From positions 1 through 51,193 of the forward strand of contig JAIPBL010000045.1 of assembly GCA_021739645.1 (NCBI GenBank): DNA of 51,193 nt, in the 5' to 3' direction. The position numbers and the translations under genes are program-made. Every line of letters starts with the position of its first letter. Position 1 is the stretch's first letter. A model generated the notes under the pieces. It worked only from the letters and a program-made list of their open reading frames with translations. It was not told where the DNA came from and did not search any database. Below are positions 3-50,720 of this stretch, one piece after another. This stretch comes from Saprospiraceae bacterium. GTDB taxonomy: Bacteria; Bacteroidota; Bacteroidia; Chitinophagales; Saprospiraceae.

Positions 3-884
3 GGGTTTGCGATTGCGGATTTGGGATTTCGGATTGCGGATTGGGGGCCGGGGCAATCCGCAATCCGCAATCCCAAATCCGCAATCGTAGCCTTTTTCCT
101 CCTCAACACCTGGGTCGTCTGCGCTTGGGATATTTGGTGGTACGGAGGTGCTTTCGGGCAGCGGGCGATGGTGCAATCGTATCCGTTGCTGGCGTTTCCA
201 CTGGCGGCATTTTTGGCTTGGACTTCCGCAATCCGCAACCCGCAATCCGCAATCTTGAAATTCTTGCTAGCGGCTTGCCTTGTGCTCAATTTGTTCCAGA
301 CCTACCAAGCCCACTGGGGCCCGTGGGAAGCCGAGGCGATGAACCGGGCGTACTACTGGCGCATTTTTGCGAAGCTAAAAAACGAACCCAACGACCGCCT
401 GTTGCTGGATACGAGGGAGGGATTTTTTGGTGTAAAACGGAACGTGCAACCCTTCTATTCCACTGATTTTGAGGCAGTTGCCGATTCTGTTGGATTGAGT
501 CGGCAGTTCGCTCACAGTGGCGTTTGGGCAGCGTTGGCAAGCCCAGCGGCAGAATATTCACAGTCAATTTTGTTGCCCCGACCTGCCAATTTGAAGGCAG
601 GCGATTGGCTGCACATCGGCGGCTGGTTTTACGGGGAGGCATTGGAATACGACTCCTGGCGGATGCCGCAGCTCGTGGTGCGATTTGAGAAGGATGGGCA
701 AGTCGTTCGGGAGCGGGCGCTGCGCCCGTTCCGGGTGATGCAGCCGGGGCAATGGACAGAGGTGGGCATGGACATCCGAGCACCTCGCAAGGATTTCGAC
801 AGCCTCAAAATCTTCGTCTGGAACGCTGGCAGCGGGGCGGGGATGTGGCTGGATGATTTACGGGTAGAGACGTTTGAAGACTAA
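3..884 (+). CDS. C-terminal part of a membrane glycosyltransferase-like protein (5' end outside window)
   Basis: The frame is open to the window edge, so the true start lies upstream; a TTG at position 21 is not a credible start because it lies in a repeat. Visible are hydrophobic segments around FFLLNTWVVCAWDIWW, YPLLAFPLAAFLAW and LKFLLAACLVLNLF, with a loop WWYGGAFGQRAMVQSYP between the first two. This loop resembles ArnT/PMT-like (GT39-type) proteins of Bacteroidota. The last about 150 residues look like a soluble beta-sandwich domain ending in GAGMWLDDLRVETFED. Two tandem 7-bp repeat blocks are translated in frame as SAIRNP-like peptides in the loops between helices. The cyclase-family gene starts 12 nt downstream, suggesting one operon. 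The assignment to GT39 is from resemblance only; the catalytic N-terminus is not in view. Confidence 0.6.
   Translation, partial: GFAIADLGFRIADWGPGQSAIRNPKSAIVAFFLLNTWVVCAWDIWWYGGAFGQRAMVQSYPLLAFPLAAFLAWTSAIRNPQSAILKFLLAACLVLNLFQTYQAHWGPWEAEAMNRAYYWRIFAKLKNEPNDRLLLDTREGFFGVKRNVQPFYSTDFEAVADSVGLSRQFAHSGVWAALASPAAEYSQSILLPRPANLKAGDWLHIGGWFYGEALEYDSWRMPQLVVRFEKDGQVVRERALRPFRVMQPGQWTEVGMDIRAPRKDFDSLKIFVWNAGSGAGMWLDDLRVETFED
10..87. repeat. Intragenic 7-bp repeat hairpin
   Basis: Arms at 10-42 and 55-87 are 33-nt reverse complements with one mismatch, built from degenerate units such as GGATTGC / GCAATCC, around a 12-nt loop. It lies inside the open frame of the membrane protein and is translated as IADLGF... 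and ...SAIRNPKSAI. Confidence 0.85.
226..254. repeat. Intragenic tandem 7-bp repeat
   Basis: Four tandem copies of CCGCAAT (second copy CCGCAAC) encode SAIRNPQSAI between two hydrophobic segments of the same membrane protein. The unit matches the right arm of the hairpin at 10-87. Confidence 0.85.
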
Positions 885-895
885 AAAATTAAGCC

Positions 896-1663
896 ATGAA
901 AATTAAATTTGAAAACAACGGCCTCAGCTACACCTCCGACCTCTCCCACCCCCTCGACCTCTCCATCCCCCTCCGGGCCGGCCTCGAAAATCCCAACTGC
1001 TACTGGGCGCCTCCGGTCGAAATCTGGCCCGTAGTGGCGGGCGATTTTGTGGGCGATACCAACCAGGGCGGTGCGGTCAATTTCAAAAACATCACCCTGA
1101 ACCCGCACGGAAACGGTACGCACACCGAGTGCGTCGGGCATATTTCCACAGAAAAATTCACCATCAACGAGTGCTTGACCAGTTTCCATTTTCTGGCGAA
1201 ACTGGCCACCGTTTACCCCACCAAAATGCCCGACGGCGACCGTGTCGTGCTGCGCCATCAGTTGGAAGAACTGGTGCAACTGGGCGAGGCCGAGGCGTTC
1301 ATCCTGCGCACCCTGCCCAACGACGACCACAAGCTCACCGCCAACTACTCCGGCACGAACCCACCCTACTTCCACCACGAGGCCGTGGACTGGCTGGTGC
1401 AATGTGGCATCCAGCACCTGCTGCTCGACCTGCCCAGCGTGGACCGGGAAGAAGACGGCGGAAAGCTGCTCGCCCACCGGGCTTTTTGGCGCTACGGCGG
1501 TCAGCCAGCCGACATCCGAAAAAATTGCACCATCACCGAGCTAATTTTTGTGGGAAATGACATCCAAGACGGCGTATATTTGTTGAACTTGCAAATCACC
1601 AGTTTGGAACTGGATGCCAGCCCCTCAAAGCCCGTTCTTTTTGAAGTAAAAAGTACAAAGTAG
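896..1663 (+). CDS. Cyclase-family (kynurenine formamidase-like) metal-dependent hydrolase
   Basis: A 255-aa protein of the cyclase family (PF04199), whose members include kynurenine formamidases that hydrolyse amide or lactone bonds with bound metal. The metal-binding signature is visible as HGNGTHTE at residues 71-78 followed by GH at 81-82; it has one residue more than the usual HxGTHxD spacing. The N-terminus SYTSDLSHPLDLSIPL matches the usual DLSHPL start of the family. ATG at 896 lies 12 nt after the preceding stop, so co-transcription is likely. No kynurenine pathway gene is adjacent, so the substrate is unknown. Confidence 0.8.
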   Translation: MKIKFENNGLSYTSDLSHPLDLSIPLRAGLENPNCYWAPPVEIWPVVAGDFVGDTNQGGAVNFKNITLNPHGNGTHTECVGHISTEKFTINECLTSFHFLAKLATVYPTKMPDGDRVVLRHQLEELVQLGEAEAFILRTLPNDDHKLTANYSGTNPPYFHHEAVDWLVQCGIQHLLLDLPSVDREEDGGKLLAHRAFWRYGGQPADIRKNCTITELIFVGNDIQDGVYLLNLQITSLELDASPSKPVLFEVKSTK

Positions 1664-1700
1664 AAAGGAAAAAGTAGGGAGCGAAATCAACCGACGCCCC

Positions 1701-1726
1701 TCCGCAATCCGAAATCCGAAATCGAA
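1701..1726. repeat. Tandem 7-bp repeat abutting a start codon
   Basis: Units CCGCAAT, CCGAAAT, CCGAAAT and a partial CGAA run directly into the ATG at 1727. The vocabulary is the same as in the repeats at 10-87 and 226-254. Confidence 0.75.
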
Positions 1727-2395
1727 ATGCTTTCGCAATCAACATACCATTCCAAGGAGTACCGTGACTTTCGGGCCATCGAACCGGGAGATTGGCGGGG
1801 CATTATTCATTTCTACGAAAAAAACGAGACTGCCATCCGTGGGCTGGATTTTGAGGAATACTTCGAGTTGCTGCTGGGCTACGCCGATGCGCTTTTTGAA
1901 ATTGGCGCTTGGCAAAAGCACCTGCTAATGGCCGATGTGGTCATCGAAACCAGCGTGATGGAAAACCTGCCGGATTTCAATGGCCGGGAGGTGTTCCGGC
2001 ATTCCCTGTTCCGCAAGGCCGCCTCCCACTTCAACCTGCTGGAACTGCACCAGGCCGAGCATGTGCTGCGGGAACTGCTGCGCATCGCCCCGCACGATAC
2101 CGACTGCGCCGCTTTCCTCCAAAAATGCCTGCGAACCATGCAACCTTGGCTAGTGCGGCAGACGAGGGCGATGGCGGTGCTGCTTTTCTTTGTGGCAGCG
2201 TTCGGCATCTTGCTTGAGATACTCGTAATTCATAATTTTTATGAAACCTGGACGAGTACTTGGCGCATTGCATCTTGGGGTTCGTTGGGACTCGGCCTAG
2301 TGGTGCTGGCAGGTGGGGAGGTGTTTCACCGCAGGCGGTGCAGGCGGGAGGTGGAGCGGTTTTTACAAAAAGTGGAGAGACGGAAAAAATCTTAA
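1727..2395 (+). CDS. Membrane protein with helical (TPR-like) N-terminal domain
   Basis: A 222-aa protein of unrecognised family. Residues 1 to about 140 are helix-rich with paired amphipathic helices (for example ALFEIGAWQKHLLMADVV and HQAEHVLRELLRIAPHDTDC), reminiscent of TPR motifs. Two hydrophobic segments follow at about 148-168 (AMAVLLFFVAAFGILLEILV) and 180-202, then a very basic C-terminal tail rich in R and K that would be cytoplasmic. The gene converges with the large minus-strand lipoprotein gene, leaving only 26 nt between the stops. No function is assigned. Confidence 0.65.
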   Translation: MLSQSTYHSKEYRDFRAIEPGDWRGIIHFYEKNETAIRGLDFEEYFELLLGYADALFEIGAWQKHLLMADVVIETSVMENLPDFNGREVFRHSLFRKAASHFNLLELHQAEHVLRELLRIAPHDTDCAAFLQKCLRTMQPWLVRQTRAMAVLLFFVAAFGILLEILVIHNFYETWTSTWRIASWGSLGLGLVVLAGGEVFHRRRCRREVERFLQKVERRKKS

Positions 2396-2421
2396 TTTTC
2401 CCCATCTCCTCACGGGCTGCC

Positions 2422-5984: not shown

Positions 5985-6249
5985 ATGGTAACGATACAAA
6001 ATCCGGTACTGGAAAAGCAGTTCGAACAGTTTTCAACAAAATTTTGAAGCCTTGAATGAGCCTGAGAAAGAGGCCATACGACAAGCTTGGGGGCCCAACG
6101 TCACCAATATTGAAAATCGCTTAAATGTTATTGGCAGCCAATTGGACAGGCATGTTGCTGAAATCATCGTATTCCCTGCCGATGCGGATGAAGCAAAATT
6201 GATTGAAGATTTGCTTTCGAGGATGCGGGTGAGGTTTAAGGTGGCGTGA
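5985..6249 (+). pseudogene. Small gene broken by a 1-nt frameshift
   Basis: Reading from the ATG at 5985 gives MVTIQNPVLEKQFEQ and then a premature stop at 6045. Skipping one T in the TTTT run at 6030-6033 restores a continuous frame (FQQNFEALNEPEKEAIRQAW...) to the stop at 6247-6249. The reconstructed protein is about 87 aa, acidic, and ends SRMRVRFKVA. The sense of the restored frame and the promoter upstream argue that this is a real gene with a single-base insertion, or a sequencing error. The size and C-terminal style resemble small antitoxin-like proteins, but the family is not recognised. Confidence 0.6.
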
Positions 6250-6501
6250 GTATGACACACTTTTTATTACAGTCTCGATTAGAACTTGTTTTCCCTAAAA
6301 ACCACTAAACTTCCTGGCGGATTGACGCAGTACAGTTGTTTTGACGGCAATCCGGAAGATGAGAGGTGTAAGGCGGGAATCAAGATGTTATTGAGAATCT
6401 AAAAAGCAGCAGAGGTTGCAATTTTGGCTAAATTTGAAAAAAAAAAATTATGAATGATAGAAAGTAGGCTTTACCCAGAAAGAAAAATCAATGTGAACTT
6501 A
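6250..6501. other. Gene-free junction before the restriction-modification island
   Basis: About 250 nt without a convincing frame. Base composition drops from G+C-balanced to AT-rich across it, ending in A-runs near 6435. It probably contains the left boundary of the acquired R-M pair and perhaps decayed remains of a partner of the broken small gene; no direct repeat or integrase remnant was seen. Confidence 0.4.
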
Positions 6502-6509
6502 TATCTTTG
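6502..6509 (+). promoter_or_regulatory. -7 promoter element TATCTTTG
   Basis: Matches TAnnTTTG 21 nt before the methyltransferase ATG at 6531. It overlaps the TTG at 6507, which argues against that codon as the translation start. Confidence 0.6.
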
Positions 6510-6530
6510 CATCAAAATTTGAAATACAAT

Positions 6531-7883
6531 ATGGGAGATAAAAAGTCATTGATATCATTGTTTGCTGGTGCTGGCGGCCTAGATTTAGGTCTAGAAATGG
6601 CAGGTTTTAAAACAATTGTTGCTAATGAGTTAGAAACTCATGCCTGTGAGACTTTAGAAAAAAATAAAGAACTTTGTAATTTAAATTCCTTTGAAGTAGA
6701 TGATTTTATTGAGAAAGTGATTCAGCAAAAGTGTTTTAATAGTCTCAGTGAGAAGGAAAAAAAATTGTTCTTTGACCGTTTAAAAAGAAATCAGCATCAA
6801 ACAAAGTTTCTTCAAGATGCCACTATAATCCAAGGGGATATAAGAACTATTGAATCTTCTGTTTTCAAAAAGCATATAAAAGGCAATGAACTTTTTTGCA
6901 TTGCAGGGGGTCCACCATGCCAACCATTTAGTAAAGCAGGTAAGCAAAAATCTTTGGATTGCACAAAAAATGGAGATTTATTTAGTGAATTTGTTCGTTT
7001 AGTTGACGACTTAAGGCCTAAGTGGTTTCTATTTGAAAATGTCAAAGGAATAACTTTCACAAAAACTGATGTAATTTATCAGAGCTGTAAAAATTGCCAT
7101 GCAATTAATATCGCACCTTTTAAAATTAGACAAGATTTTGAGACATTTCAGAATGACCGTAAATGTGAAAATTGTGGAAGCCAAAATACGGATTGGTTAA
7201 CTGAAAATGAACCAGGAGGTTCATTGAAGATAATATTTAATGAATTTCAAAAATTAGGCTATAAATGTACGTACAAGGTACTTAATGCTGCAGATTTTGG
7301 TGCGCCTCAAATAAGAGAAAGATTAATTATTGTTGGAAATAGAGATGGTAAAAATTTCGATTGGCCCATACCGACACATTCAAAAAGTATAAACGGGTTT
7401 AGTCAGGGAGATTTATTTCAGAAAATATCACCGCTGAAAAAGTGGGTAACGTTGAAAGAAAAGATATGGGCACAAGGACATAACTATTATGGGGAGATTG
7501 ATGAAAGTCAAGCAAAACTCTGGGTTAAGAACGTTGTACGACCTCATGATGAACCTGTAACATGGAATTTAGATAGACCTTCACCAACAATAGGTGCTCA
7601 TCAGGGTGCTAAATTAGCATTTGCCCCTTTTGGAATTCCTGAAAAACAATTATTTAGGCAGCAATGGGCAACAAAAGGTAGGAAACAAGGGGATACACCA
7701 CCTGTACCAGTTGAACATCGTTATCTTAGTGATGAAGAGTTGCTAAAATTACAGACATTTCCAGATTGGTGGTATTTGCATGGAACAAGAATGCAAAGAG
7801 CTTTTCAGATAGGTAATGCTGTCCCACCAATTTTAGGGAAAGTCATCGGAGATGCTATTATTAAATCTGAGAATACATTATGA
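6531..7883 (+). CDS. DNA (cytosine-5) methyltransferase, type II R-M system
   Basis: 450 aa; modifies cytosine in the recognition site of the partner nuclease. Seen motifs: SAM-binding LFAGAGGLDLGLEMAGF (10-26), catalytic GGPPCQPFS with Cys130, FENV (168-171), QIRER (260-264), and the closing QIGNAVPP near 426-433. Between the FENV and QIRER motifs there is a four-cysteine zinc-ribbon-like insert, CKNC at 186-189 and CENC at 212-215, not part of the standard fold. The target-recognition region is about 275-400. The stop overlaps the next start (ATGA at 7880-7883), implying translational coupling. The gene is clearly richer in A+T than its neighbours, a sign of horizontal transfer. Confidence 0.95.
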   Translation: MGDKKSLISLFAGAGGLDLGLEMAGFKTIVANELETHACETLEKNKELCNLNSFEVDDFIEKVIQQKCFNSLSEKEKKLFFDRLKRNQHQTKFLQDATIIQGDIRTIESSVFKKHIKGNELFCIAGGPPCQPFSKAGKQKSLDCTKNGDLFSEFVRLVDDLRPKWFLFENVKGITFTKTDVIYQSCKNCHAINIAPFKIRQDFETFQNDRKCENCGSQNTDWLTENEPGGSLKIIFNEFQKLGYKCTYKVLNAADFGAPQIRERLIIVGNRDGKNFDWPIPTHSKSINGFSQGDLFQKISPLKKWVTLKEKIWAQGHNYYGEIDESQAKLWVKNVVRPHDEPVTWNLDRPSPTIGAHQGAKLAFAPFGIPEKQLFRQQWATKGRKQGDTPPVPVEHRYLSDEELLKLQTFPDWWYLHGTRMQRAFQIGNAVPPILGKVIGDAIIKSENTL

Positions 7884-8854
7884 GTATCAAAACATTAAAA
7901 GCTTTTACAGATGTAGAACTGGATTTGGCAAGAGATTTATTATCTGCTAAAATCGCAAGTATGCTAGGTCGCAAAATGGAAGAAGGAGATTGGGATTTCG
8001 TGTACTGTAATGCTAAAAAGATACCAAGTTCGGATTGGAGCAACCTACACATTGATATCAATCACAAAGGGTTAGGTGTTGAGCATAAGATGCTAAGAGT
8101 TACAAAATCAGGAACTATATTAGGGGAATGTGGCACAACAAAAATGCACCCTGCAGGAACAAGAAGTATAAGGATACCTGATGAAGCAGACCCAAATAAA
8201 GCTATGATAAATATACTTGGACAATATTCTGATTTGATTAAAGAAAGAACAACCTCGGTAAAAGTGCATAGTGAAGATGGAAATACCGATATGAGAATTG
8301 GTTGGCTACTATGGAATGAATCGCTAGATGAATTTCTGTACTTTGAAGAAGAAATGATTATTCCTACACCTGAAGATTATTATGCAACGTGGAATGTAAC
8401 CCCAGCTAGAGGAGCAAGGAAAGAATCTCGAAGTTTATGGATTTTTGATAAAAAAACAGACAAAAAGAAATATTCAGTTACAACCACAGCAGGTGCAAAG
8501 ATTCAGCCATATTTTGATATTCCTTCGCCTAAAGACCCCAATTTATATCATTTTAAAGTGCAGGGAGTTGCCGAAGGAGATGGTTTAGTGAAAGTGTGGT
8601 TAACCAAAAGTACAGCAAGATATTTAGAATTGCTCTTAGGTAATTTGGATTCTGAATCAGTATCAAAGTCAATTTTAGAATTTAATGGAGAAGCTACAAA
8701 AGAAGCAGGTATTGATTTCTTTAAAGGACAAGATATAGCAACGCCTATAATTATTTCCGATACCGCATATCAAAAATTGCAAAAAATGTATTCCCCGATA
8801 AGTGATGAATATATGCTTCAGCAATTTGCAATGGATTTAGGGGCGACAAAATAA
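7880..8854 (+). CDS. Putative type II restriction endonuclease paired with the methyltransferase
   Basis: 324 aa. Identification rests on the coupled position behind a C5 methyltransferase and on a candidate PD-(D/E)xK core: D59, then GVEHK with E68 and K70, next to a conserved-looking GTTKMHPAGTRSIRIP region. I do not recognise the specific family or recognition site. It shares the AT-rich composition of the methyltransferase. Cleaving unmodified foreign DNA would be the expected role. An alternative is another nuclease type or a methyl-dependent partner, but the ATGA overlap favours a classic R-M pair. Confidence 0.75.
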   Translation: MSIKTLKAFTDVELDLARDLLSAKIASMLGRKMEEGDWDFVYCNAKKIPSSDWSNLHIDINHKGLGVEHKMLRVTKSGTILGECGTTKMHPAGTRSIRIPDEADPNKAMINILGQYSDLIKERTTSVKVHSEDGNTDMRIGWLLWNESLDEFLYFEEEMIIPTPEDYYATWNVTPARGARKESRSLWIFDKKTDKKKYSVTTTAGAKIQPYFDIPSPKDPNLYHFKVQGVAEGDGLVKVWLTKSTARYLELLLGNLDSESVSKSILEFNGEATKEAGIDFFKGQDIATPIIISDTAYQKLQKMYSPISDEYMLQQFAMDLGATK

Positions 8855-9874: not shown

Positions 9875-9890
9875 CAGCAATGATATTGGG

Positions 9891-10003
9891 CGCGAGGAGG
9901 ATGGAACACAGATTAAATTGATTTAATGGATTTGAACTGATTTCCTTATAAAATTTGTGTGAATCAGTTTAATCAGTAAAATCTGTGTCCCATCCTCCTC
10001 GCG
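9891..10003. repeat. Large imperfect inverted repeat filling an intergenic gap
   Basis: The left arm begins CGCGAGGAGGATGGAACACA at 9891; the right arm ends with TCCCATCCTCCTCGCG at 10003, directly against the stop codon of the outer-membrane protein gene (10004). Arms of about 34 nt match with a few mismatches; inner sequence has further ATTGATTT / AATCAGTTT complementarity. The style resembles the repeat at 30045-30108. Confidence 0.75.
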
Positions 10004-11630: not shown

Positions 11631-11662
11631 ACTGCCAACTGCCAACTGCCGAACTGCCAACT
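11631..11662. repeat. Tandem 7-bp repeat abutting the lpxK start
   Basis: Units of ACTGCCA (ACTGCCA ACTGCCA ACTGCCG A ACTGCCA) end one base before the ATG at 11664. A near-identical block lies upstream of the S24-type regulator at 28149-28180. Confidence 0.8.
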
Positions 11663-11663
11663 C

Positions 11664-12731
11664 ATGATTCAAGACCCACTCATACGTATCCTGCTACTGC
11701 CTTTCTCGCTTTTGTACGGGTTAGGGATTAGCATTCGTGATTTTTTGTACCGACAGAAAGTGCTCATCAGCGTAAAATTTGACCTGCCCGTCATCTCCGT
11801 GGGCAACCTGACCGTGGGCGGGGCGGGCAAAACGCCGCACATCGAGCACCTCATCAGGCTGCTGCGGCCCTACCTGAACGTGGCGACCCTCAGCAGGGGC
11901 TATCGCCGAAAAACGCAGGGCCACCAAATCGTGGAGTACTGGAGCAAAGCAGACCAGGTAGGTGACGAGCCGCTGATGTTCAAACGAAAGTACCCTGACG
12001 TGTTTGCCACGGTGAACGAAAACCGGGCGCTCGGCATCCCTGACTTGATTGGGCAAGCGCCCGAAACGCAGGTGGTGCTTCTCGATGATGCCTTCCAACA
12101 CCGGGGCGTTTCGCCGGGGCTGAACATCTTGCTGACGGAGTTCCGACGGCCATTTACCCGGGACTGGCTGTTGCCCAGCGGTCGCCTTCGGGAGTGGAAA
12201 AGTGCCTACCGCCGTGCCGATGTCATCGTGGTGACGAAGTGCCCCGACGACCTCCACGACGACGAACGGGCAAAAATGTTGGCTGAAATAAAGCCCTTTC
12301 CGCACCAGCAGGTTTTCTTTTCCAGCTATCGGTATTTGAAGCCCTACTATGTGCTCAACCCGAAATTCACCATTGATTTACAGGAAGATATGTCGGTGCT
12401 CATGGTCTGCGCCATCGCCAATTCAGATTACCTGCGGGACTGGCTGGAAACCAAGGTCGGCACCGTGCGGGTGAAGGAGTACGAAGACCACCACTATTTC
12501 ACCGAAGATGACTTAACGGACATTGAAAAACAGTTTGCCGATTTGAAAGGCAGTAAAAAAATCATCCTCACCACCGAAAAAGATGCCATGCGTTTGGAAC
12601 TGCTCCGTGAGCGATTGTTGGAAAATAAGCTGCCGTTCATGGTGCTGCCCGTGGAGGTAGCGTTCCATGGCCAGGATGGGCAGGGGTTTGACAAGTTGGT
12701 GAAGGAGTTTATGCTCAATTTCAAAGTCTGA
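11664..12731 (+). CDS. lpxK: Tetraacyldisaccharide 4'-kinase (lipid A biosynthesis)
   Basis: 355 aa. Phosphorylates the 4' position of the lipid A disaccharide precursor at the inner membrane. The signature PVISVGNLTVGGAGKTPHIE (about 45-64) contains the P-loop, and the N-terminal hydrophobic segment (LIRILLLPFSLLYGLGISIRD) is the usual membrane anchor. The DDAFQHR motif (VVLLDDAFQHRGV) is present. Length fits the family. Finding this enzyme shows that the organism makes lipid A and is Gram-negative. The start is fixed by the family N-terminus and follows a repeat. Confidence 0.95.
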   Translation: MIQDPLIRILLLPFSLLYGLGISIRDFLYRQKVLISVKFDLPVISVGNLTVGGAGKTPHIEHLIRLLRPYLNVATLSRGYRRKTQGHQIVEYWSKADQVGDEPLMFKRKYPDVFATVNENRALGIPDLIGQAPETQVVLLDDAFQHRGVSPGLNILLTEFRRPFTRDWLLPSGRLREWKSAYRRADVIVVTKCPDDLHDDERAKMLAEIKPFPHQQVFFSSYRYLKPYYVLNPKFTIDLQEDMSVLMVCAIANSDYLRDWLETKVGTVRVKEYEDHHYFTEDDLTDIEKQFADLKGSKKIILTTEKDAMRLELLRERLLENKLPFMVLPVEVAFHGQDGQGFDKLVKEFMLNFKV

Positions 12732-12736
12732 TTTAA

Positions 12737-12919
12737 TTGAAAATGGATAATTGATAATTGATAATTGATAATTGATAATTATGCTAACCACTCTGTTTCT
12801 TTTTTGAATCAAATTTATCCAGCCCACCGTTTCAGCCGACAACCCTGTTAACTTTGCGCCAAAATTGAAATTTGGGCAACGCCTTAATTATCAATTTTTC
12901 ATTTTCAATTTTCAATTCC
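12737..12919. repeat. Split 7-bp repeat hairpin flanking a promoter
   Basis: The left block (12737-12780) is tandem TTGATAA; the right block (12884-12919) is its degenerate reverse complement (TTAATTATCAATTTTTC...). The about 100 nt between them hold the -7 element of the next gene. Confidence 0.75.
12849..12856 (+). promoter_or_regulatory. -7 promoter element TAACTTTG
   Basis: Matches TAnnTTTG 67 nt before the ATG at 12924. It lies between the arms of a 7-bp repeat hairpin, so the right arm would be in the 5' leader. Confidence 0.55.
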
Positions 12920-21135: not shown

Positions 21136-21170
21136 CCCCCTCATATACTCAAATACGCAAATACTCAGTA

Positions 21171-23391: not shown

Positions 23392-23427
23392 GGATTTAGG
23401 ATTTACGATTTTGGATTTACGATTTGA
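23392..23427. repeat. Tandem 7-bp repeat after the MutS-like gene
   Basis: Units GGATTTA, GGATTTA, CGATTTT, GGATTTA, CGATTT follow directly on the TAG stop. No complementary arm was found nearby, so this is a one-sided example. Confidence 0.7.
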
Positions 23428-23452: not shown

Positions 23453-23484
23453 ACATTGTTTTTTGACCTTCAAAGGTGAAGATT

Positions 23485-27900: not shown

Positions 27901-27959
27901 GATAATTTGATTTGTCATTAAAGTCATTGGTCATTGGCGTCATTGGTCATTCGGAGGTG

Positions 27960-28148: not shown

Positions 28149-28180
28149 ACTGCCAACTGCCAACTGTCAAACTGCCAACT
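28149..28180. repeat. Tandem 7-bp repeat upstream of the S24-type regulator
   Basis: ACTGCCA-type units as at 11631-11662, ending 5 nt before the ATG at 28186. Confidence 0.75.
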
Positions 28181-28185: not shown

Positions 28186-29016
28186 ATGAACAGTATCATC
28201 ACCGACCGCTTCATCAACTGCCACAACAAGCTCCGGGAGGACGGCAAGGTGCGCTCCAGCCGCATGTTTGCCCTTACGCTCGACTACCTGCCGCAGAGCC
28301 TCAGTGAAATCCTCAAAGGCCGCCGAGATGTGACCATTGAGCTGCTGCGCAAAGCAGTGGAGGAGTATAATTTCAACCCGGTTTACCTGTTCACGGGGGA
28401 GGGCACGATGTTCGTTTCCGGTGAGGAAAACAAGAGCTTTCGCACGCTCACCGTGGTGACAGACGTGAGCAACGACGAGCGTATCGTGCACGTGCCAGTA
28501 CCTGCGCAAGCTGGCTACGCCGGGGAGCAGCTAGACCCAATTTTTTTCGAAGACCTGCCCACCTACACCCTGCCCGACTACAAGTACAAAGTGGGTACGC
28601 ACCGCTCCTTCGACGTCAGCGGGGACAGCATGGAACCCACACTTTTTGAGGGAGATAAAGTGGTGTGTAGCTTCCTGGAGCCGAGTTATTGGGAGACGAG
28701 CTTGAAGGACAATTACGTCTATGTCATCGTCACCCGGGGCGATGTAGTGGTCAAGCGAGTCTTCAACCAAATCCGAACGGGCCGCTGTCTGGAGCTGCAT
28801 TCCGACAACGAGTTTTACCAGCCCTTCAACGTCCCCATCGGCGACGTGCGGGAAATCTGGTACGTGCGGGCGAAAATCAGCCCATTCCTGCCAGCCCCGG
28901 CGAGTTTGCAGAACAATATGAAAACGGAAATGTCGGAATTGACGAAGGTGATCCAGCAGCAGAGCAAGTTGATAGAAAATTTGTACGAGACTATCGAAAA
29001 ACTGGCTGCTCGGTGA
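28186..29016 (+). CDS. LexA-like/phage-repressor-type regulator (HTH + S24 peptidase)
   Basis: 276 aa from the ATG at 28186; the longer open frame from 28057 reads through repeats and is rejected. The N-terminal about 75 residues form an XRE-like helix-turn-helix (FALTLDYLPQSLSEILKGRR). Residues about 130-230 are an S24 peptidase domain with the Ser in FDVSGDSMEPTLFEGD and the Lys in VVVKRVF, the Ser-Lys pair of self-cleaving repressors. A short coiled-coil tail (LTKVIQQQSKLIENLYETIE) ends the protein. A stress- or prophage-type regulator is likely; no prophage genes are nearby. Its TGA stop is part of a repeat. Confidence 0.85.
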   Translation: MNSIITDRFINCHNKLREDGKVRSSRMFALTLDYLPQSLSEILKGRRDVTIELLRKAVEEYNFNPVYLFTGEGTMFVSGEENKSFRTLTVVTDVSNDERIVHVPVPAQAGYAGEQLDPIFFEDLPTYTLPDYKYKVGTHRSFDVSGDSMEPTLFEGDKVVCSFLEPSYWETSLKDNYVYVIVTRGDVVVKRVFNQIRTGRCLELHSDNEFYQPFNVPIGDVREIWYVRAKISPFLPAPASLQNNMKTEMSELTKVIQQQSKLIENLYETIEKLAAR

Positions 29017-29087
29017 TTGGTGATTGGTGATTTGTGATTAGTTTAGCCCACCCCAATCACCAGTCACGAATCACGAATCACTAAATC
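29012..29087. repeat. 7-bp repeat hairpin running from a stop codon to a start codon
   Basis: Left arm: units GGTGATT, GGTGATT, TGTGATT beginning in the TGA stop at 29014-29016. Right arm at 29055-29087: AATCACC, AGTCACG, AATCACG, AATCACT, ending at the ATG (29088). The gap between the two genes is therefore nearly all repeat. Confidence 0.85.
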
Positions 29088-29313: not shown

Positions 29314-29392
29314 TTGGGTTGATAAAAGTTGATAAGGGTTTATGATGTTGATATGCCCAAATCAACCCTTATCGACCTTTATAAACTTTTAG
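29314..29392. repeat. Short-unit repeat hairpin
   Basis: GTTGATAAAAGTTGATAAGG-type units on the left are matched by AATCAACCCTTATCGACC on the right. The block lies between two genes and ends 5 nt before the ATG at 29398. The vocabulary is the same as in the palindrome at 40078-40133. Confidence 0.7.
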
Positions 29393-29397
29393 CAACC

Positions 29398-30033
29398 ATG
29401 AGAATCACCATTTTCGGCGCTACCGGAATGACCGGCCAACGAGCAATTGACGAAGCACTGGCCCACGGCCACGAAGTCCGGGCCTTCGGGCGAAATGTAT
29501 TTGAAGCCCTCAGCACCGAGCGGGAGCGGCTCGAACTTTTCAAAGGCGGCGTACTCAGCCACGGTGACGTGGAAGATGCCGTCAAAGGTGCAGACGCTGT
29601 GATATCCTGTCTCGGCGGCGGCATTGACGGCATTGACCGCACCCGCTCGTTGGGTATGAAAACCATCGTGGAAGCCATGAAAAAGAAAGGGCCGAAGCGC
29701 ATCATCGCCATTGGCACCATTGGCATCCTGCAAGCGAAGGAAGCGGGCAAACTCCGCTACCAAATGCCAGGCTATTCGCCCAAATTTAAAGCCGTAGCTG
29801 TCGAGCATTTTGAGGCTTGGCAATACCTCCTCAACTCACCGCTCAACTGGACGTTACTTTGCCCGCCCGAAATCAGGGACGAGCCAACCACTGGCCAGTA
29901 TAACTTAAAGCTTGATTACCCCGCCGATGGGCCGATGTGGGTCAATGCAGGCGACTTGGCGCATTTCATGATGCATGAGTTGCAAGCGGACGAGTGGGTA
30001 AAAGCAAGGGTGGGGATTGCGGCACGGGTGTGA
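29398..30033 (+). CDS. NAD(P)-binding NmrA-like/atypical SDR protein
   Basis: 211 aa from the ATG at 29398, which begins directly with the Rossmann loop MRITIFGATGMTGQRAIDEA; the frame upstream to 29329 runs through repeat sequence. The continuing pattern DAVISCLGGG and the later helix match atypical short-chain dehydrogenases that bind NAD(P) without a complete catalytic tetrad. Substrate unknown. Confidence 0.8.
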   Translation: MRITIFGATGMTGQRAIDEALAHGHEVRAFGRNVFEALSTERERLELFKGGVLSHGDVEDAVKGADAVISCLGGGIDGIDRTRSLGMKTIVEAMKKKGPKRIIAIGTIGILQAKEAGKLRYQMPGYSPKFKAVAVEHFEAWQYLLNSPLNWTLLCPPEIRDEPTTGQYNLKLDYPADGPMWVNAGDLAHFMMHELQADEWVKARVGIAARV

Positions 30034-30044: not shown

Positions 30045-30108
30045 ACTGATTGGACTGATTTTCATTGATTTTTGTAAAACTTAATCAGTGAAAATCAGTC
30101 CAATCAGT
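30045..30108. repeat. Imperfect inverted repeat between SDR and UbiB-type genes
   Basis: ACTGATTGGACTGATTTTCA (from 30045) pairs with sequence ending at 30108 (TGAAAATCAGTCCAATCAGT with one upstream mismatch). Further CAGTCCAAT units follow. Style resembles the repeat at 9891-10003. Confidence 0.75.
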
Positions 30109-30137
30109 CCAATCTGCGTCCCATCAAACCTACTATC

Positions 30138-38708: not shown

Positions 38709-40214
38709 CTACCTCACCACTCCCACCGGGAGATTCCCGTCATATTTCCCAGTCAAAACAGGCGTTTGCGCCCCAGCCGTATAACGGCTAACTTTCAAGT
38801 TCACATAATCGAAAAGCTCTTGGATGGAAACAATCTTGTCGTGGTCGGCATCCGCCTCGCCTTTCAAGCCTTTTATCAAAAAATGGCTAAAAACGCCTGA
38901 CCTGAGACCCGAATCTTCCAGCGAAACCTCTGCCCCTTTCGACGACATGAACAGCGCTGTACCGCTTTCGCAATTCTCAAAAGCCTTGTAGTATTTGTTC
39001 AGCATATCGCCGATGGACGGCGCTTTCGCAGCCAGCATCTCCGGCACAAATTCACCTCCAACGAGTGAACCAGAGTGGCAGGCGTCGCCAAGAACCAGTT
39101 TTTGCCGGGCATGGCTTTGTTCCAAAATATGCCGGATTTCAGCATGCTCCAGTCGGTGACTGTACCCATCGAAATCCACCGGAACAAAGGCGCCTTCAAT
39201 GCCGTGGCCCGAGAAGTAAAACAGCACCACATCGTTTTTGTCTGCCTGAAGAAAAATGCTGCGCATGGCTTCCAGCAGGTTGTCACGAGTAGCATTGTCG
39301 TCAACCAGCACCCGCACCTGTTCGTCGGGCAGGGCGCCGCCCTCGGGGCTTTTCAGGAAAGCGTAAAACTGGTAGGCATCATCATCGGTGTATCGAAGGG
39401 CAGGCATGTGTTCATAGCTGGCCACACCTGCCACCACCGCCCAAACCTTCACTTGTGGGTCGAATGCGGGGGCGTTCTCGGTTGTTTTTGAGATAGCATC
39501 TGGCTCGTTCAAAGGAGGGTCGGCAGGCTCCTGAGCGGTGGGGCGGCGAGCCTTGCCGTCCACCCATTCGCCGGGGTTTGCGCTGCCATTTTCATCAAAA
39601 AAAATACCGTCGCCGTGCTTTTGATTGTCTGACCATTGCCCCACATACCTAGCGCCACTTTTATAAAACATGGTGCCTTTTCCGTTGAATCTCCCCTCCC
39701 GAAACCGGCCCTCATATCGGTCGCCCGTGTGGAAGGCATAGCTACCAAGGCCCTCTTGTTTGTTGGCTTGCCAATCGCCGTCATAAACATCGCCATTGGC
39801 ATAGTGCATGATGCCCTTGCCATGGAATTGGCTCCGCTGGAACTGTCCAAAGTATTCGTGGCCTTCATTGTAAATGAACTTGCCCTCGCCCTGTTGCCAG
39901 TTGTCTTCCCAGTGGCCGATGTACTTGTTGCCATTGGCACAATAGAGAATGCCCTTTCCGTTGGGTTTGCCATATTGGAAGTCCCCCATGTATTTGTTGC
40001 CGTTTGGGTAAACATACGTGCCGTAACCATCCGAGCAGTTGCCGTTTACGCAACCATCAACTGGGGGTTGATGAGGGTTGATAAGGGTTGATGAAGTTGA
40101 TAGGCGCCTATCAACTTCATCAACCCTTATCAATTTTGAATTGTCGGCCGAGGCCGGAATTGTAAAAAGGAGGGCGAACCCTGTCATCACTGCCCATTGC
40201 ATTAGATTCCGCAT
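38709..40214 (-). CDS. Secreted MORN-repeat caspase-family (C14) protein
   Basis: 501 aa from the ATG at 40214 (longer frame to 40253 rejected because MRNLMQWAVMTGFALLFTIP is a signal peptide). Domain order: signal; a linker whose residues about 28-46 (IRVDEVDRRLSTSSTLIN) are encoded by a perfect palindrome; about seven MORN repeats (GYGTYVYPNGNKYMGDF-type, residues about 55-225); then a caspase domain with VLFYFSGHG (His) and LVLGDACHSGS (Cys). Both catalytic residues are intact, unlike the caspase-like protein at 23.5 kb. MORN repeats often bind lipid or protein. A signal-peptide metacaspase-like protease of the envelope is inferred. A variant -7 (TAACTTCG) lies at 40286-40293 on the coding strand. 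Confidence 0.88.
   Translation of the reverse strand: MRNLMQWAVMTGFALLFTIPASADNSKLIRVDEVDRRLSTSSTLINPHQPPVDGCVNGNCSDGYGTYVYPNGNKYMGDFQYGKPNGKGILYCANGNKYIGHWEDNWQQGEGKFIYNEGHEYFGQFQRSQFHGKGIMHYANGDVYDGDWQANKQEGLGSYAFHTGDRYEGRFREGRFNGKGTMFYKSGARYVGQWSDNQKHGDGIFFDENGSANPGEWVDGKARRPTAQEPADPPLNEPDAISKTTENAPAFDPQVKVWAVVAGVASYEHMPALRYTDDDAYQFYAFLKSPEGGALPDEQVRVLVDDNATRDNLLEAMRSIFLQADKNDVVLFYFSGHGIEGAFVPVDFDGYSHRLEHAEIRHILEQSHARQKLVLGDACHSGSLVGGEFVPEMLAAKAPSIGDMLNKYYKAFENCESGTALFMSSKGAEVSLEDSGLRSGVFSHFLIKGLKGEADADHDKIVSIQELFDYVNLKVSRYTAGAQTPVLTGKYDGNLPVGVVR
40067..40135. repeat. Perfect 56-bp palindrome inside the MORN-caspase gene
   Basis: 40078-40105 and 40106-40133 are exact reverse complements with no loop, built from GGTTGAT-type units; a further GGTTGATGAG unit lies at 40067-40077. 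Because the block is palindromic, the same peptide (IRVDEVDRRLSTSSTLIN) is encoded on both strands. The unit vocabulary is shared with the block at 29314-29392. Confidence 0.95.
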
Positions 40215-40519: not shown

Positions 40520-41017
40520 ATGGTTAAAAAATTCTTATTCCTGAGCATCTTGTCCACGTTTCTGTGGGCATGCGGCGGCAACCAGCCCGCAGACACCACT
40601 GCGCAAACCGGCCAGCCACAAACCTTCGGCGAGGCTATTACCACTGATGGCGCTGTTTCAATGGCGGAAATGGTCGCCAAACTGCAAGGTCTAGACTCCG
40701 TGCAGGTGAAAGTGAAGGGCAAAGTCGAGTCCGTTTGCCAAACCAAAGGCTGCTGGGTCAACCTACACGACGACCAAGCTGGTGACGTTTTCGTCAAGTT
40801 TAAAGATTATGGCTTTTTCCTCCCAAAGGACATCGCTGGCCGTGAGGTCGTGATGGATGGGTATGCTTTCCGGGAGACTACCTCGGTGGAAGACCTCAAG
40901 CACTATGCCGAGGACGAAGGCAAAACAAAGGAAGAAATCGATGCTATCACCCAGCCGAAAGAGGAACTTAAGTTCATGGCAAGCGGTGTGGTGTTGCTGC
41001 CGGAAGATAAGAAATGA
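40520..41017 (+). CDS. DUF4920 lipoprotein
   Basis: 165 aa. Lipoprotein signal MVKKFLFLSILSTFLWACGG. The conserved core QVKVKGKVESVCQTKGCWVN, then FVKFKDYGFFLPKDIAGREV and VVMDGYAF, matches DUF4920, a small OB-fold-like family of unknown function with a Cys pair (CQTKGC) suggestive of metal or redox binding. Its stop codon (41015-41017) lies in a repeat that reaches to the cyclase ATG, so the two genes may be co-transcribed. Confidence 0.85.
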   Translation: MVKKFLFLSILSTFLWACGGNQPADTTAQTGQPQTFGEAITTDGAVSMAEMVAKLQGLDSVQVKVKGKVESVCQTKGCWVNLHDDQAGDVFVKFKDYGFFLPKDIAGREVVMDGYAFRETTSVEDLKHYAEDEGKTKEEIDAITQPKEELKFMASGVVLLPEDKK

Positions 41018-41090
41018 GTTTCGAGTTTTGAGTTTTGAGTTTCGAGTGCTTGCTCGGCAACTCAAAACTCAAAACCACCAACTCAAAACT
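41015..41090. repeat. 7-bp repeat hairpin joining two genes
   Basis: Left arm from 41016: GAGTTTC, GAGTTTT, GAGTTTT, GAGTTTC, GAGT, beginning in the TGA stop codon. Right arm 41060-41090: ACTCAAA, ACTCAAA, ACCACCA, ACTCAAA, ACT, ending at the ATG (41091). Confidence 0.9.
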
Positions 41091-44087: not shown

Positions 44088-44123
44088 AACCTAATTCCCT
44101 AATTCTCTAATTCCCAATTTCCT
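44088..44123. repeat. Tandem 8-bp repeat abutting a start codon
   Basis: CCTAATTC, CCTAATTC(T), TCTAATTC, CCAATTTC units ending at the TTG start at 44125. The period is 8 rather than 7, an exception to the usual pattern. Confidence 0.65.
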
Positions 44124-44969: not shown

Positions 44970-45072
44970 CGCCGTTTTTGGCATCGCCGCAGGCGACCCG
45001 CCTCGTATTACGTGCAAACGTGACGTGAAGCGAGGCGTGGACGGGTCGCCTGCGGCAATGCCAAAGGCGGCG
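44970..45072. repeat. Structured repeat element, copy A
   Basis: A 31-nt left arm (44970-45000) and right arm (45042-45072) pair with three mismatches around a 41-nt loop (45001-45041). Loop and flanks are related to copy B at 49820-49919 (in reverse orientation), but the stem sequence differs. The gene-free stretch 44893-45288 is otherwise only the PhnA promoter and leader. Confidence 0.85.
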
Positions 45073-45198
45073 ACAACCGTGACAACAACTAAGGCGTGAA
45101 AGGTCAAAAGTCAAGGAATTTAATTTCCAGTGTACTGAACTTGCCAAGTTAAGGACTTGGAATGTCTTCGCCAAAACTGTTCATTTTGCAATAAAAAC

Positions 45199-45914: not shown

Positions 45915-45936
45915 TTGACAAATCTGGCCTACTAGT

Positions 45937-45944: not shown

Positions 45945-45948
45945 CTTC

Positions 45949-46452: not shown

Positions 46453-46467
46453 TTAAATACACAGCAC

Positions 46468-48030: not shown

Positions 48031-48042
48031 TTACCGTTGAAA

Positions 48043-48194: not shown

Positions 48195-48223
48195 AGCGGC
48201 AGCTCCTTACAGGAACTGCCGCT
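48195..48223 (-). terminator. Terminator-like hairpin at the break of the ABC remnant
   Basis: AGCGGCAGCTCC (48195-48206) pairs with GGAACTGCCGCT (48212-48223) with one mismatch. On the minus strand it is followed by TTTTATT, so it reads as a terminator immediately upstream of the remnant, marking a rearrangement junction. Confidence 0.6.
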
Positions 48224-48676: not shown

Positions 48677-48684
48677 TACCTTTG
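48677..48684 (+). promoter_or_regulatory. -7 promoter element TACCTTTG
   Basis: Matches TAnnTTTG; the rsgA start is 102 nt downstream, with a 7-bp repeat hairpin between. Confidence 0.6.
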
Positions 48685-48696
48685 TCGTTGAACGAA

Positions 48697-48775
48697 GACG
48701 TTAGACATTAGATGTTTGACATTAGACAGGACAGCGGTTCTTCTAAAGTCTATCGTCTAAAATCTAAAGTCTAAC
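48697..48775. repeat. 7-bp repeat hairpin in the leader of rsgA
   Basis: Left arm 48697-48727: GACGTTA, GACATTA, GATGTTT, GACATTA, GAC. Right arm 48749-48775: GTCTATC, GTCTAAA, ATCTAAA, GTCTAAC. Units degenerate but the period is 7 on both sides and the arms are complementary. Confidence 0.85.
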
Positions 48776-48786
48776 AAAGAATTCAT

Positions 48787-49731: not shown

Positions 49732-49819
49732 GCGGGTGATCGGTTGGCTACGGTGCTATGAAAGCGCAATTTAAATTCCTTGCTTTGTCATTATACGCCG
49801 TAGTTGTCGTCACGGTGGA

Positions 49820-49919
49820 CGCCGCCTTTGTCATTGCGAAGCAACCCGTCCACGTCTCGCTTCATGTCATGTTTGCTCGTATTACGTGAACGGGTTGCTT
49901 CGCAATGACAAAGGCGGCG
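49820..49919. repeat. Structured repeat element, copy B
   Basis: The 30-nt arms 49820-49849 and 49890-49919 are exact reverse complements around a 40-nt loop. The reverse complement of this copy matches copy A (44970-45072) in the loop and both flanks while the stem core differs in sequence and length. It fills most of the gene-free stretch 49732-50022. Confidence 0.9.
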
Positions 49920-50022
49920 CATAGCAGGGCGAATACATTGCTGCGAGAACCGACAAAAGTGAAGAAATCTTGGTTACATTGTACTTAGTGCCGAAGCGAG
50001 CCTTTTATGTTTATCACTTCTC

Positions 50023-50616
50023 TCACGCTCTTAACAACCAACCAGCTATGCTCATTCTTTCCCGCTTGGCCGGCCGCACTTCGTGCTCAATTTTGTCGGC
50101 TTTAAAGAAAACGACCCGTCCGCCTTGGGGCTGGATGATGATTTCCTTGCCATCGAGGTACAGCACCAACTCACCGCCATCGGTGTCCAACCAGTCCTCG
50201 TTGAGGTAGGTGAGCATGGAGAATTGGCGGTTGGAATCCAGCTTGAATTGGTCCAAATGGCGCTTGTAAAAACTGCCCATTTCATACAGGGTATTGTGAA
50301 ACTCACTGCCATTGATGCCCGTGTAGCAAGTTTGGTTCAGGTAGGCGTAAAAAGCAGTGACGATGGCCATGAACGCCAGTTCGGAAGGTTCGATGGAGTC
50401 GTTTTCCAGCCACAAAATCACGTCGCCCCGTATTTTTTGATTCTGCTGAAAACTGTTCTGTTTGCCCACGCCAGCTTGGTGCATCATGCCGTCGGCATGG
50501 CCTTTTTGGAGGTTTTTGCGCAGCGAAGCAATCAAGTTTAGGTCAAAAAAGTCCTCACAAGTAGCATAGTCATCGGCGAGGTAGCCTTGGATGAGTGCTT
50601 CGAATTTTTCATGCAA
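50023..50616 (-). CDS. 2-oxoglutarate/Fe(II)-dependent oxygenase (prolyl 4-hydroxylase-like)
   Basis: 197 aa. The iron-binding HxD is in YKRHLDQF and the distal His in DKIEHEVRP, followed by the 2-oxoglutarate-binding Arg (KRERMSIAGWL). The pattern QPQGGRVVFFKADKIEHEVR matches small bacterial P4H/PKHD-type oxygenases. It hydroxylates a protein or small-molecule substrate not deducible here. Confidence 0.85.
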   Translation of the reverse strand: MHEKFEALIQGYLADDYATCEDFFDLNLIASLRKNLQKGHADGMMHQAGVGKQNSFQQNQKIRGDVILWLENDSIEPSELAFMAIVTAFYAYLNQTCYTGINGSEFHNTLYEMGSFYKRHLDQFKLDSNRQFSMLTYLNEDWLDTDGGELVLYLDGKEIIIQPQGGRVVFFKADKIEHEVRPAKRERMSIAGWLLRA

Positions 50617-50641
50617 TTGTTAATTTCTAGCGCATTTATTA

Positions 50642-50720
50642 GAGCGTGAGAGGGTGAGAGATGTGAGAGGGTGAGAAATGGGGACCTCTCTCACCCTCTC
50701 ACATCTCTCACGCTCTCACG
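50642..50720. repeat. 7-bp repeat hairpin between two minus-strand genes
   Basis: Left arm: GAGCGTGAGAGGGTGAGAGA (from 50642) and onwards; right arm (50685-50720): CTCTCTCACCCTCTCACATC and onwards. The arms complement each other with a short loop; GTGAGAG is the core unit, spacing 7-8. Confidence 0.8.

Follow-up and report, generated by a model that had tools for sequence, protein, structure and literature searches.

Short tandem arrays in the gene gaps of this Saprospiraceae bacterium follow a polarity rule: the C-poor strand runs 5' to 3' away from each flanking gene. Many of these arrays are dispersed modules of about 4.5 to 5 short units with a preferred length, occurring solo or as head-to-head pairs. 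The repeated words are members of genome-wide families, and orthologous gaps often carry another word instead. Reports of heptamer repeats from cyanobacteria and other bacteria go back decades; we know of no accepted origin for them.

Arrays and hairpins in the window and the genome sample

The window (the whole stretch of 51,193 nt that was analyzed) had been described in a first-pass annotation as carrying about 15 loci with short tandem arrays of period mostly 7, sometimes 8-10, many of them followed by their own reverse complement. This description holds: our array detector returned 17 arrays at 15 places, again with a period of mostly 7 and also 8-10, and all six inverted arrays cited there beat 200 dinucleotide shuffles each in fold energy. 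Weaker extra arrays were added by Tandem Repeats Finder, and an Rfam scan of the window gave nothing at gathering score. Gene starts and stops were taken from our own longest-ORF rule, with no annotation used. In the following list, the strand is the G-rich strand of a single array and a dot denotes a hairpin.

10..87, strand., hairpin of GGATTTG/GGATTGC followed by its reverse complement (arms 10-43 and 54-87, loop 10 nt, fold z -9.9)
225..254, strand -, TCCGCAA array within a rough-called ORF
1644..1723, strand., two degenerate arrays, AAGTAAA and TCCGAAA, the latter 3 nt 5' of ATG 1727
9885..9990, strand., 9-mer hairpin of the GATTTAATG type, a dispersed family (weak fold z -2.5); the orthologous gap holds other words in genomes G005, G006, G008, and G012, and no word was found in that of G003
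11631..11662, strand -, ACTGCCA array, C-rich on the coding strand, stopping short of ATG 11664 of an LpxK-type gene
12735..12917, strand., TTGATAA inverted arrays with a long loop, lying between stop 12731 and start 12924 (fold z -3.6 for 12730-12919)
21140..21167, strand -, 8-mer array CTCAAATA, 5' of ATG 21171
23392..23425, strand +, GGATTTA/GATTTTG array abutting the stop at 23391
27910..27951, strand +, GTCATTG-type array in a divergent gap, at the start of a minus-strand ORF
28149..28180, strand -, ACTGCCA array belonging to a copy of the GGCAGTT module, directly 5' of ATG 28186; G013 has a GAGTTTT hairpin at the orthologous site
29012..29087, strand., GGTGATT hairpin spanning from one gene's stop to the next gene's start (fold z -6.5)
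29316..29399, strand., 10-mer hairpin GGTTGATAA, dispersed family
30045..30114, strand., 9-mer hairpin ACTGATTGG, 5' of ATG 30138
40065..40133, strand., 10-mer hairpin GGGTTGATAA
41015..41090, strand., GAGTTTT hairpin (fold z -7.1), with different words at this site in G008, G003, and G013 (G003 by eye only)
44090..44123, strand -, CCTAATTC array between a TAGCTTTG box and the coding region, with a different word in G013 and, by eye, in G003 and G008
48696..48774, strand., imperfect GTTAGAC/ATTAGAC hairpin (fold z -5.9 for 48690-48779)
50642..50730, strand., GTGAGAGG hairpin with mirrored variant units of 8-9 nt (fold z -12.0 for 50640-50730)

Shuffled-sequence controls gave far fewer arrays and inverted repeats, or none. 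The window plus 400 kb contained 47 arrays, compared to 3 in five dinucleotide shuffles combined, and the 835 kb sampled of the 6.16-Mb genome contained 134 arrays and 102 inverted repeats, of which 43 were periodic, compared to 0 of either in one shuffle. The arrays and hairpins are genuine and far above chance; the earlier observation as a whole is partly confirmed. All contigs sampled came from the list of ACTGCCA matches, and this word is therefore over-represented. Period 7 was found in 72/134 arrays and period 8 in 41/134. A reverse-complement copy lay within 150 bp of 57/134 arrays, a direct copy within this distance of 13/134, and a reversed but non-complemented copy was seen for 1/134. 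According to simple ORF calls, 28 of the 43 hairpins occupy tandem gaps, 4 convergent and 3 divergent ones, while 6 fall within called ORFs and 2 at an edge.

Strand polarity relative to genes

The periodic hairpins of the genome were G-first in 42/43 cases; for comparison, 59 non-periodic hairpins comprised 35 G-first, 20 C-first, and 4 ties. Mirror unit order exceeded the permuted mean in 28/32 own hairpins, but because this test is biased by hairpin detection, we used an independent comparison of neighbouring arrays. Such arrays, each detected independently in the own genome and its relatives, were arranged head-to-head in 32 cases, tail-to-tail in none, and in the same orientation in 8. 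Arrays near stops were G-rich on the coding strand in 43/44 cases and those near starts C-rich on the coding strand in 31/32 (25-nt distance; arrays with G=C and periods other than 7/8 left out). Of 165 arrays counted for this rule, 82 were near neither gene end and 7 near both kinds. Unpaired arrays alone obey it as well (17/18 and 14/15). Loci from other phyla were baited with ACTGCCA, and 80 of the 120 (L051-L130) entered the polarity, quadruplex, Rho, folding, and length counts; when the polarity count was repeated with the ACTGCCA word left out, 17 of 20 were G-first, with 1 tie and 2 C-first. The DNA of the G-arm self-folded better than that of the C-arm in 16/43 own hairpins and worse in 2, the energies being tiny.

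The STRR of cyanobacteria had been named as the nearest precedent. These long simple sequence repeats are intergenic with a dominant period of 7, and the comparison is fair in that our units are likewise 5-11 nt, mostly 7, and beyond chance. In the secondary sources on STRR considered here, we came across no test of outward polarity, of composite arms, or of whether module length is fixed. Closer, however, are the GGGAATC and GGGGA(C/T)T heptamers of Xanthomonas and Nostoc, which are intergenic, scarce between divergent genes, and have their G-strand on the coding strand after stops and on the non-coding strand before starts (Rehm et al. 2015, PMC4692102). Two Xanthomonas genomes contain 70 and 75 convergent inverted heptamer pairs, four units are preferred, and a sister species keeps the gene context while length and sequence vary; the potential functional role "still remains to be elucidated" (PMC4692102). 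Our arrays share the outward G-strand polarity and the placement (43/44 and 31/32 here). In contrast to the single G4-forming word type of those genomes, many different words lacking a G3 motif are used here, words are exchanged between orthologous gaps, and composite modules carry a degenerate site. Heptamer repeats are thus already known, including a GGGAATC type with the same polarity and placement; new here are the words that obey the polarity rule without a G3-quadruplex motif, the fixed modules, and the word replacement.

G-quadruplex elements have been proposed for the GGGAATC repeats, and polarity, placement, and four-unit preference are common to both systems. But none of the 43 hairpin arms contains a G3 quadruplex motif and only 5/43 a G2 motif, which renders quadruplexes the most improbable of the explanations weighed here. 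Bidirectional Rho loading, with the C-rich, G-poor arm always last, is very improbable too. Rho sites are C-rich and G-poor with regularly spaced YC dimers, so composition and spacing fit, and G000 encodes Rho. However, two array-bearing cyanobacterial genomes (completeness not given) have only weak Rho matches, none over cut-off, and cyanobacterial loci nevertheless follow the near-gene rule by 16:5 and 10:2 at a looser distance of 50 nt. Furthermore, YC is equally common in reversed words (63 vs 63 of 72, other phyla).

The frequent placement of arrays within about 18 nt of starts and about 10 nt of stops fits a selected RNA or DNA element, which would either be bound by a multimeric protein (each module offering about five cores) or act as a hairpin or leader controlling translation of the next gene. 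A candidate arm-binding protein is the glycine-rich RRM protein encoded at 35450-35863. Within about 20 nt upstream of start codons, the G-poor strand was found for 33/132 arrays and the other strand for 5/129. Even leaders without arrays are poor in G (.131, vs.217 for C), and the module, with its degenerate centre and conserved sides, resembles a binding site. TAACTGA direct repeats have been proposed as such sites (MacGregor 2015, PMC4679880). They are reported from Beggiatoaceae, Cyanobacteria, and some Bacteroidetes, often directly 5' of start codons as are arrays here, mostly in one orientation, patchily over phyla, and in some genomes with other heptamers close by. Unlike our arrays, they all repeat one word, in which G and C are equally frequent, present in the main genome as 169 direct sets with one indirect repeat, and no hairpin-pair architecture is described in the parts considered. 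If our arrays are selected elements, selection would set both polarity and word constraints. Against this stand the wholesale word replacement at orthologous gaps, the 51/85 congener sites without a detected array (see below), and the missing skew of array-free after-stop sequence (G.217 vs C.207); we regard a selected element as unlikely. A promoter box TANNTTTG 5' of leader arrays was dropped for too few cases (4/33 vs 0/33 in a control stretch). The reading as all-frame stop signals was dropped as well, since stop triplets occur in 29/52 distinct own G-strand words and in 36/52 when reversed.

Modules, word families, and word replacement

Heptamer arrays have a length mode of 31-33 nt (about 4.5 units), which comprises 23/72 own arrays, 18/59 from the genus, and 34/209 from other-phyla loci; 66/209 arrays from other phyla exceed 60 nt. 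Long pure arrays also occur at contig ends (ACTGCCA) and account for most G005 matches of the GATTTAC arm. A subset of arms consists of composite modules, about 31-36 nt long with sharp ends and degenerate at one position, which recur at many loci between unrelated loops and flanks. In the two families measured, unit order and sharp ends are kept at many loci. For the GGCAGTT module we counted 15 copies in 835 kb; their ends are sharp, and a single site is degenerate (C7 A6 T2). The composite GATTTAC arm was detected in 8/30 genomes, all 8 in the genus, compared to 0/30 for the reversed control, with 56 matches in G012 and 19 in G000; the 43 copies of the relatives' set were chosen by the pattern itself, some loci being counted twice. 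Nothing is conserved beyond the module ends in the GGCAGTT and GATTTAC copies compared.

The phrases had been called locus-specific, and the family was said to share form, not sequence. Neither statement can be maintained: words such as ACTGCCA recur genome-wide and fall into classes, making sequence families; composite-module arms recur at many loci, and the polarity is strict. An 18-nt ACTGCCA pattern gave 87 overlapping matches across the genome, and the top word classes contain 11, 10, 8, 8, and 7 of the 134 arrays (ACTGCCA being inflated by the choice of contigs). Three copies of ACTGCCA are present in many phyla among the matches listed, in a scan without control. Within the phylum they occur in 12/296 genomes, compared to 2/296 for the reversal (own genome included in both), while GGTGATT showed no excess (3/198 vs 5/198 for its reversal). 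Hence, only one of the two words tested is favoured, and a shared cross-phylum vocabulary was rejected. So was a GA/TC-dinucleotide grammar, which is present in own and genus words but missing in family and other phyla: words with only TC vs only CT numbered 17 vs 4 of 46 (own), 11 vs 2 of 25 (genus), 1 vs 1 of 10 (family), and 13 vs 14 of 72 (other phyla).

What does stand of the earlier claim is that form is kept while the word changes, as seen when orthologous intergenic regions of relatives were compared: words were often switched, some were kept, and at many sites no array was detected. In the more distant congeners (pieces about 65-87% alike), 25/85 site comparisons gave a different word and 9/85 the same or a related one, and no array was detected in 51/85. 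In the nearest relative (85-93%), 7/19 sites had the same word, 3/19 a different one, and none was detected in 9/19. The earlier interpretation as a whole is partly supported.

Co-evolution of the two arms, or conversion-like copying between them, had also been suggested. Arm similarity within a locus exceeded the mean of other like-word loci in 20/27 testable pairs but was strictly best in only 6/27. Thus, co-variation is moderate, and arm-to-arm conversion is possible but not general. Among 16 same-arm hairpins, arm likeness was 0.945 within a locus vs 0.72 between loci, the former value being inflated since the inverted-repeat finder picks matching stretches; this favours local copying or pairing selection, and both arms of one hairpin were identical in just 2/16. 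The loops of these hairpins were about as alike as shuffled loops (0.273 vs 0.268). Because the G012 copies were picked by arm similarity, arm likeness is selected in this set but loop unlikeness is not. Loops of orthologous hairpins exceeded shuffled likeness in 4/6 measured pairs (2/8 tried gave no hairpin). Since loops also differ between orthologues, fast loop turnover after whole-hairpin copying may still apply.

Ordinary long simple-sequence repeats, in which a 7-8-nt seed grows by local polymerase slippage and acquires its inverted copy through fold-back template switching, would account for length polymorphism, long pure arrays, the greater likeness of arms within than between loci, and the perfectly mirrored arms at L203:3675-3760 and L205:6264-6346. 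In many bacteria, long SSRs are also most often heptameric (Mrazek, cited in PMC4679880). We nevertheless consider this explanation rather unlikely, though deserving of some weight: identical composite arms occur at many loci, lengths peak instead of declining steadily, unpaired arrays are also strictly polar, and within-locus arms are so rarely identical.

Mobility of the whole hairpin, as in REPIN/RAYT or MITE elements, would explain singlets and inverted doublets scattered over gene gaps. REP/REPIN/BIME elements are likewise built of short units that stand in gene gaps singly or as inverted doublets, their spacers being less conserved (PMC3116915, PMC3733652), and our arrays share this arrangement and the conserved ends. 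They differ in that there are many words per genome, the heptamer units are not palindromic themselves, no end tag was noticed (without a dedicated search), and no RAYT association was found. G000 has 7 Y1 transposase matches (6 over cut-off), but a heptamer hairpin adjoins the Y1 gene at 0/7 loci, and 6/7 bear non-heptamer palindromes. At one locus there is just an 8-mer hairpin, about 1.1 kb off, and three others have weak 8-mer arrays 0.3-2.4 kb away. The involvement of RAYT-type transposases, raised in the first-pass annotation, therefore finds no backing at these loci. G001 has no Y1 match (its array content was outside the survey). Unlike MITE copies, ours are not alike over their full length: the loops are unrelated (n=16) and the flanks beyond the modules unconserved. 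A mobile hairpin is thus quite improbable.

Origin of the arrays

The word-independent polarity and the length preference narrow the possibilities and speak against a general role of quadruplexes or Rho. We also rejected loss of SbcCD, the nuclease that acts on palindromes, since SbcD is present in G000 (E 4e-62); SbcD matches were found in 12/14 genomes, over cut-off in 10/14. All four candidates, namely quadruplexes, Rho, RAYT/REPIN, and loss of SbcCD, are thus improbable as general causes. That the layout is kept while words change suggests copying by an unknown process, strong filtering of sequences, or the two combined.

We tentatively favour arm-wise templated copying between gaps followed by selection, with a probability of roughly 40%. 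A module already present at another genomic site would be the source of a new arm, reached by template switching while a break is repaired or a fork restarts, and arms would be written singly, one per event. Head-to-head pairs, word families particular to a genome, and the exchange of words would all follow from copying one arm at a time. Before starts, selection against G-rich leaders may help to fix the orientation, which leaves the C-poor preference after stops unaccounted for. In RNA, the paired arms would form a long hairpin, with the G-poor arm as leader of the next gene. Polarity, the 31-33-nt mode, composite arms, unrelated loops, and word replacement support arm-wise copying. We infer the process from these features; our comparisons revealed neither a copying event nor an enzyme that would perform it. 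Against it are the long pure arrays, which slippage explains better, the lack of preference for GGTGATT in the phylum, and the permutation of units inside detected arrays, which lowered shared composite 24-mers only from 76 to 48.

More doubtful is an end-writing process, in which a short-template enzyme or recombination pathway would add a C-poor module of about 32 nt to each 3' end at gap breaks, the ends then being joined. The modules would run outward from the gene, and the product would resemble a head-to-head telomere fusion, both ends having the same polarity and word family around an unrelated loop. A solo arm would represent one written end and a new word another template.

The polarity rule and the length preference make the origin of heptamer repeats testable by strain-level comparison. 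If arms are truly written one at a time, this would represent an unrecognised form of bacterial templated repair that continually rewrites gene leaders and trailers.

Short-period arrays and their placement

With our own array detector, 17 short-period arrays were found at 15 places in the window, and Tandem Repeats Finder added further weak ones. Chance does not account for these arrays. The window and another 400 kb of its genome (G000) together contained 47 arrays compared with 3 in five shuffles summed, and a larger scan of G000 (835 kb) gave 134 arrays and one shuffle none. Their periods were 7 (n = 72), 8 (41), 9 (7), 6 (5), 12 (4), 10 (3), and 11 (2). The first-pass annotation had named six examples of arrays followed by their own reverse complement. 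All six folded more stably than their shuffled versions (z −3.6 to −12.0), and one place outside this group folded more weakly:
10-87, hairpin
12737-12919, hairpin
29012-29087, hairpin
41015-41090, hairpin
48697-48775, hairpin
50642-50720, hairpin
9885-9990, weaker fold (z only −2.5)

Within 150 bp, 57 of the 134 arrays had an inverted copy, 13 a direct copy, and 1 a reversed, non-complemented copy; copies within the flanks of other arrays numbered 0. By rough ORF calls, 43 hairpins lay in tandem (28), convergent (4), and divergent (3) gaps, inside ORFs (6), or at edges (2). Many begin about 10 nt or less past a stop and end about 18 nt or less before the next start. A selected element, acting by binding or as RNA, is one of two main rivals to the explanation favored below.

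The distribution across relatives is patchy. Densities per 100 kb, from 835 kb of G000 and 27-150 kb of each other genome, were 16.0 in G000, 15.7, 10.8, 8.7, 6.0, and 4.0 in its congeners G006, G013, G008, G007, and G003, 18.8, 6.2, and 0 in the family members G016, G014, and G015, and 1.2 and 0 in G020 and G026 of the order. Two other G000 contigs start with long pure ACTGCCA arrays (C49, 1-138; C69, 1-131); therefore, arrays of this kind probably interrupt assembly, leading to an undercount.

From its gene content and leader boxes, the genome is probably that of a member of the Bacteroidota. Several other features of the window were noted. A separate dispersed repeat outside the detected arrays (44970-45136) has many partial matches in congeners. 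The low-GC stretch 6001-8854 (0.36 at 6001-8000, about 0.5 around it) contains a C-5 cytosine DNA methylase ORF (6507-7883), followed by an ORF without a Pfam match, and could be an acquired restriction-modification island. A caspase-domain protein with the effector-associated domain EAD11 (23476-24537) is encoded about 50 nt past an array that trails the stop at 23391. A small RRM protein (35450-35863), with a GCG-rich 33-bp coding repeat after its RRM, is a candidate RNA-binding partner of leader arrays.

Strand polarity

In 42 of the 43 periodic hairpins of G000, the C-poor, G-containing arm was the 5′ one (opposite in one), and the same test split 59 non-periodic inverted repeats 35 to 20 with 4 ties. 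This arm also came first in 4/4 hairpins of a first set of relatives and, in larger samples, in G003 (1/1), G006 (3/3), G008 (5/5), G007 (2/2), G013 (2/2), and G016 (4/5), with one tie in G014. For loci from other phyla, fetched with the bait word ACTGCCA, the count was 27/30 (1 tie, 2 opposite), and 17/20 (1 tie, 2 opposite) for those lacking the bait word. Among 318 arrays from G000 and relatives, each detected independently of any inverted match, neighbors with similar words stood head-to-head in 32 cases and tail-to-tail in none (two-sided p = 4.7e-10), with 8 in the same orientation.

Near stops, the coding strand was G-rich in 26/26 paired and 17/18 unpaired arrays; near starts it was C-rich in 17/17 and 14/15, respectively. 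Hairpin and gene-relative polarity are a single rule: the C-poor strand reads 5′ to 3′ away from the gene. Gene-relative counts were 16:5 and 10:2 for cyanobacterial loci and 37:13 and 11:5 for the remaining loci of that set, the last not significant alone. Array-free leaders are G-poor (G.131, C.217), array-free post-stop sequence is unskewed (G.217, C.207), and post-stop arrays and hairpins are skewed (G.306, C.147). Therefore, leader composition could account for only one half of the rule.

According to PMC4692102, heptamers of the GGGAATC type form convergent inverted pairs in Xanthomonas and Nostoc, show a four-unit preference, and are scarce between divergent genes. Their strand placement is the same as here. 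They are discussed there in terms of G4 capacity, and the authors were unable to identify a role in gene regulation. PMC4679880 reports that TAACTGA repeats precede start codons in Beggiatoaceae, Cyanobacteria, and five Bacteroidetes. Our literature search, which covered few subscription journals, recognized no prior report of polarity for non-G4 words, of composite modules, or of word replacement. G-quadruplexes were rejected as a general cause, as the G3 motif occurs in 0/43 arms. Rho was also rejected as a general cause: its gene exceeded the cut-off in five of seven genomes checked and fell below it in both cyanobacterial ones.

Word turnover and fixed modules

The phrase switching that the first-pass annotation had suggested looking for in orthologous gaps was observed. 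The window and two further G000 regions were compared with as many as seven congeners, and six of these yielded comparable sites (a few of them coding repeats). In the nearest congener, G013, 7 of 19 sites had the same word, 3 a different one, and 9 none detected; in the others, 85 sites comprised 7 same, 2 related, 25 different, and 51 none detected. Some of the sites scored as none are detector misses (e.g., 29043 and 40105 in G013, visible by eye). The random-pair baseline for "same" was 3.2%. One gap, near 6217 in locus L196, holds a hairpin in 6/6 genomes compared, with four different words. Six orthologous G000-G013 hairpins (of eight tried) had arm identities of 0.41-0.77 between flanks of 87-91%, and loop likeness exceeded the shuffled level in 4/6. 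On this sequence comparison, hairpins change faster than their flanks.

Period-7 array lengths peaked at 31-33 nt in G000 (23/72), congeners (18/59), and other-phyla loci (34/209, with 66/209 longer than 60 nt); period-8 medians were 33 in G000 and 37 in the genus. Some arms are dispersed composite modules. The GGCAGTT module, AAGTTggCAGTT-N-GACAGTTGGCAGTTGGCAGTCaG, has 15 sharp-ended copies in 835 kb, matched over a 20-nt anchor only, with N being C in 7, A in 6, and T in 2. The GATTTAC module, ATTTACGATTTACGA-N-TGACGATTTACGATT, occurs with at most one mismatch in 8/14 genus genomes and in 0/16 outside the genus; its reversed control was found in 0/30. The matches number 56 in G012, 31 in G005, where most are pure arrays, 19 in G000, and 1-4 in each of the remaining five genomes. 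Copies of this module are both solo and paired. In 16 hairpins with this arm, loops were no more alike than shuffled ones (0.273 vs 0.268), both arms were identical in two, and arm likeness was 0.945 within a locus, a value inflated by hairpin finding, and 0.72 between loci. Further word families look module-like by eye.

The other main rival is slippage with fold-back; local slippage accounts for long pure arrays but fails for composite modules at many loci and for the length peak. A RAYT origin, which the first-pass annotation had proposed checking, found no support: 6/7 Y1 transposase loci carry their own unrelated palindromes, and a heptamer hairpin adjoins 0/7. The palindromes at own-genome Y1 loci (L333, L334, L336, and L337; e.g., CGCCGAACTGGGGTTCGGCG) are apparently RAYT/REP-like families distinct from the heptamer modules. 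Loss of SbcCD was rejected, as SbcD was found in the genome. Since quadruplexes, Rho, RAYT, SbcCD loss, and local slippage are each contradicted, unsupported, or insufficient, we tentatively favor, at a probability of roughly 0.4, arm-wise templated copying between gaps combined with selection. Arms would be copied singly from templates across gaps, with selection acting too.
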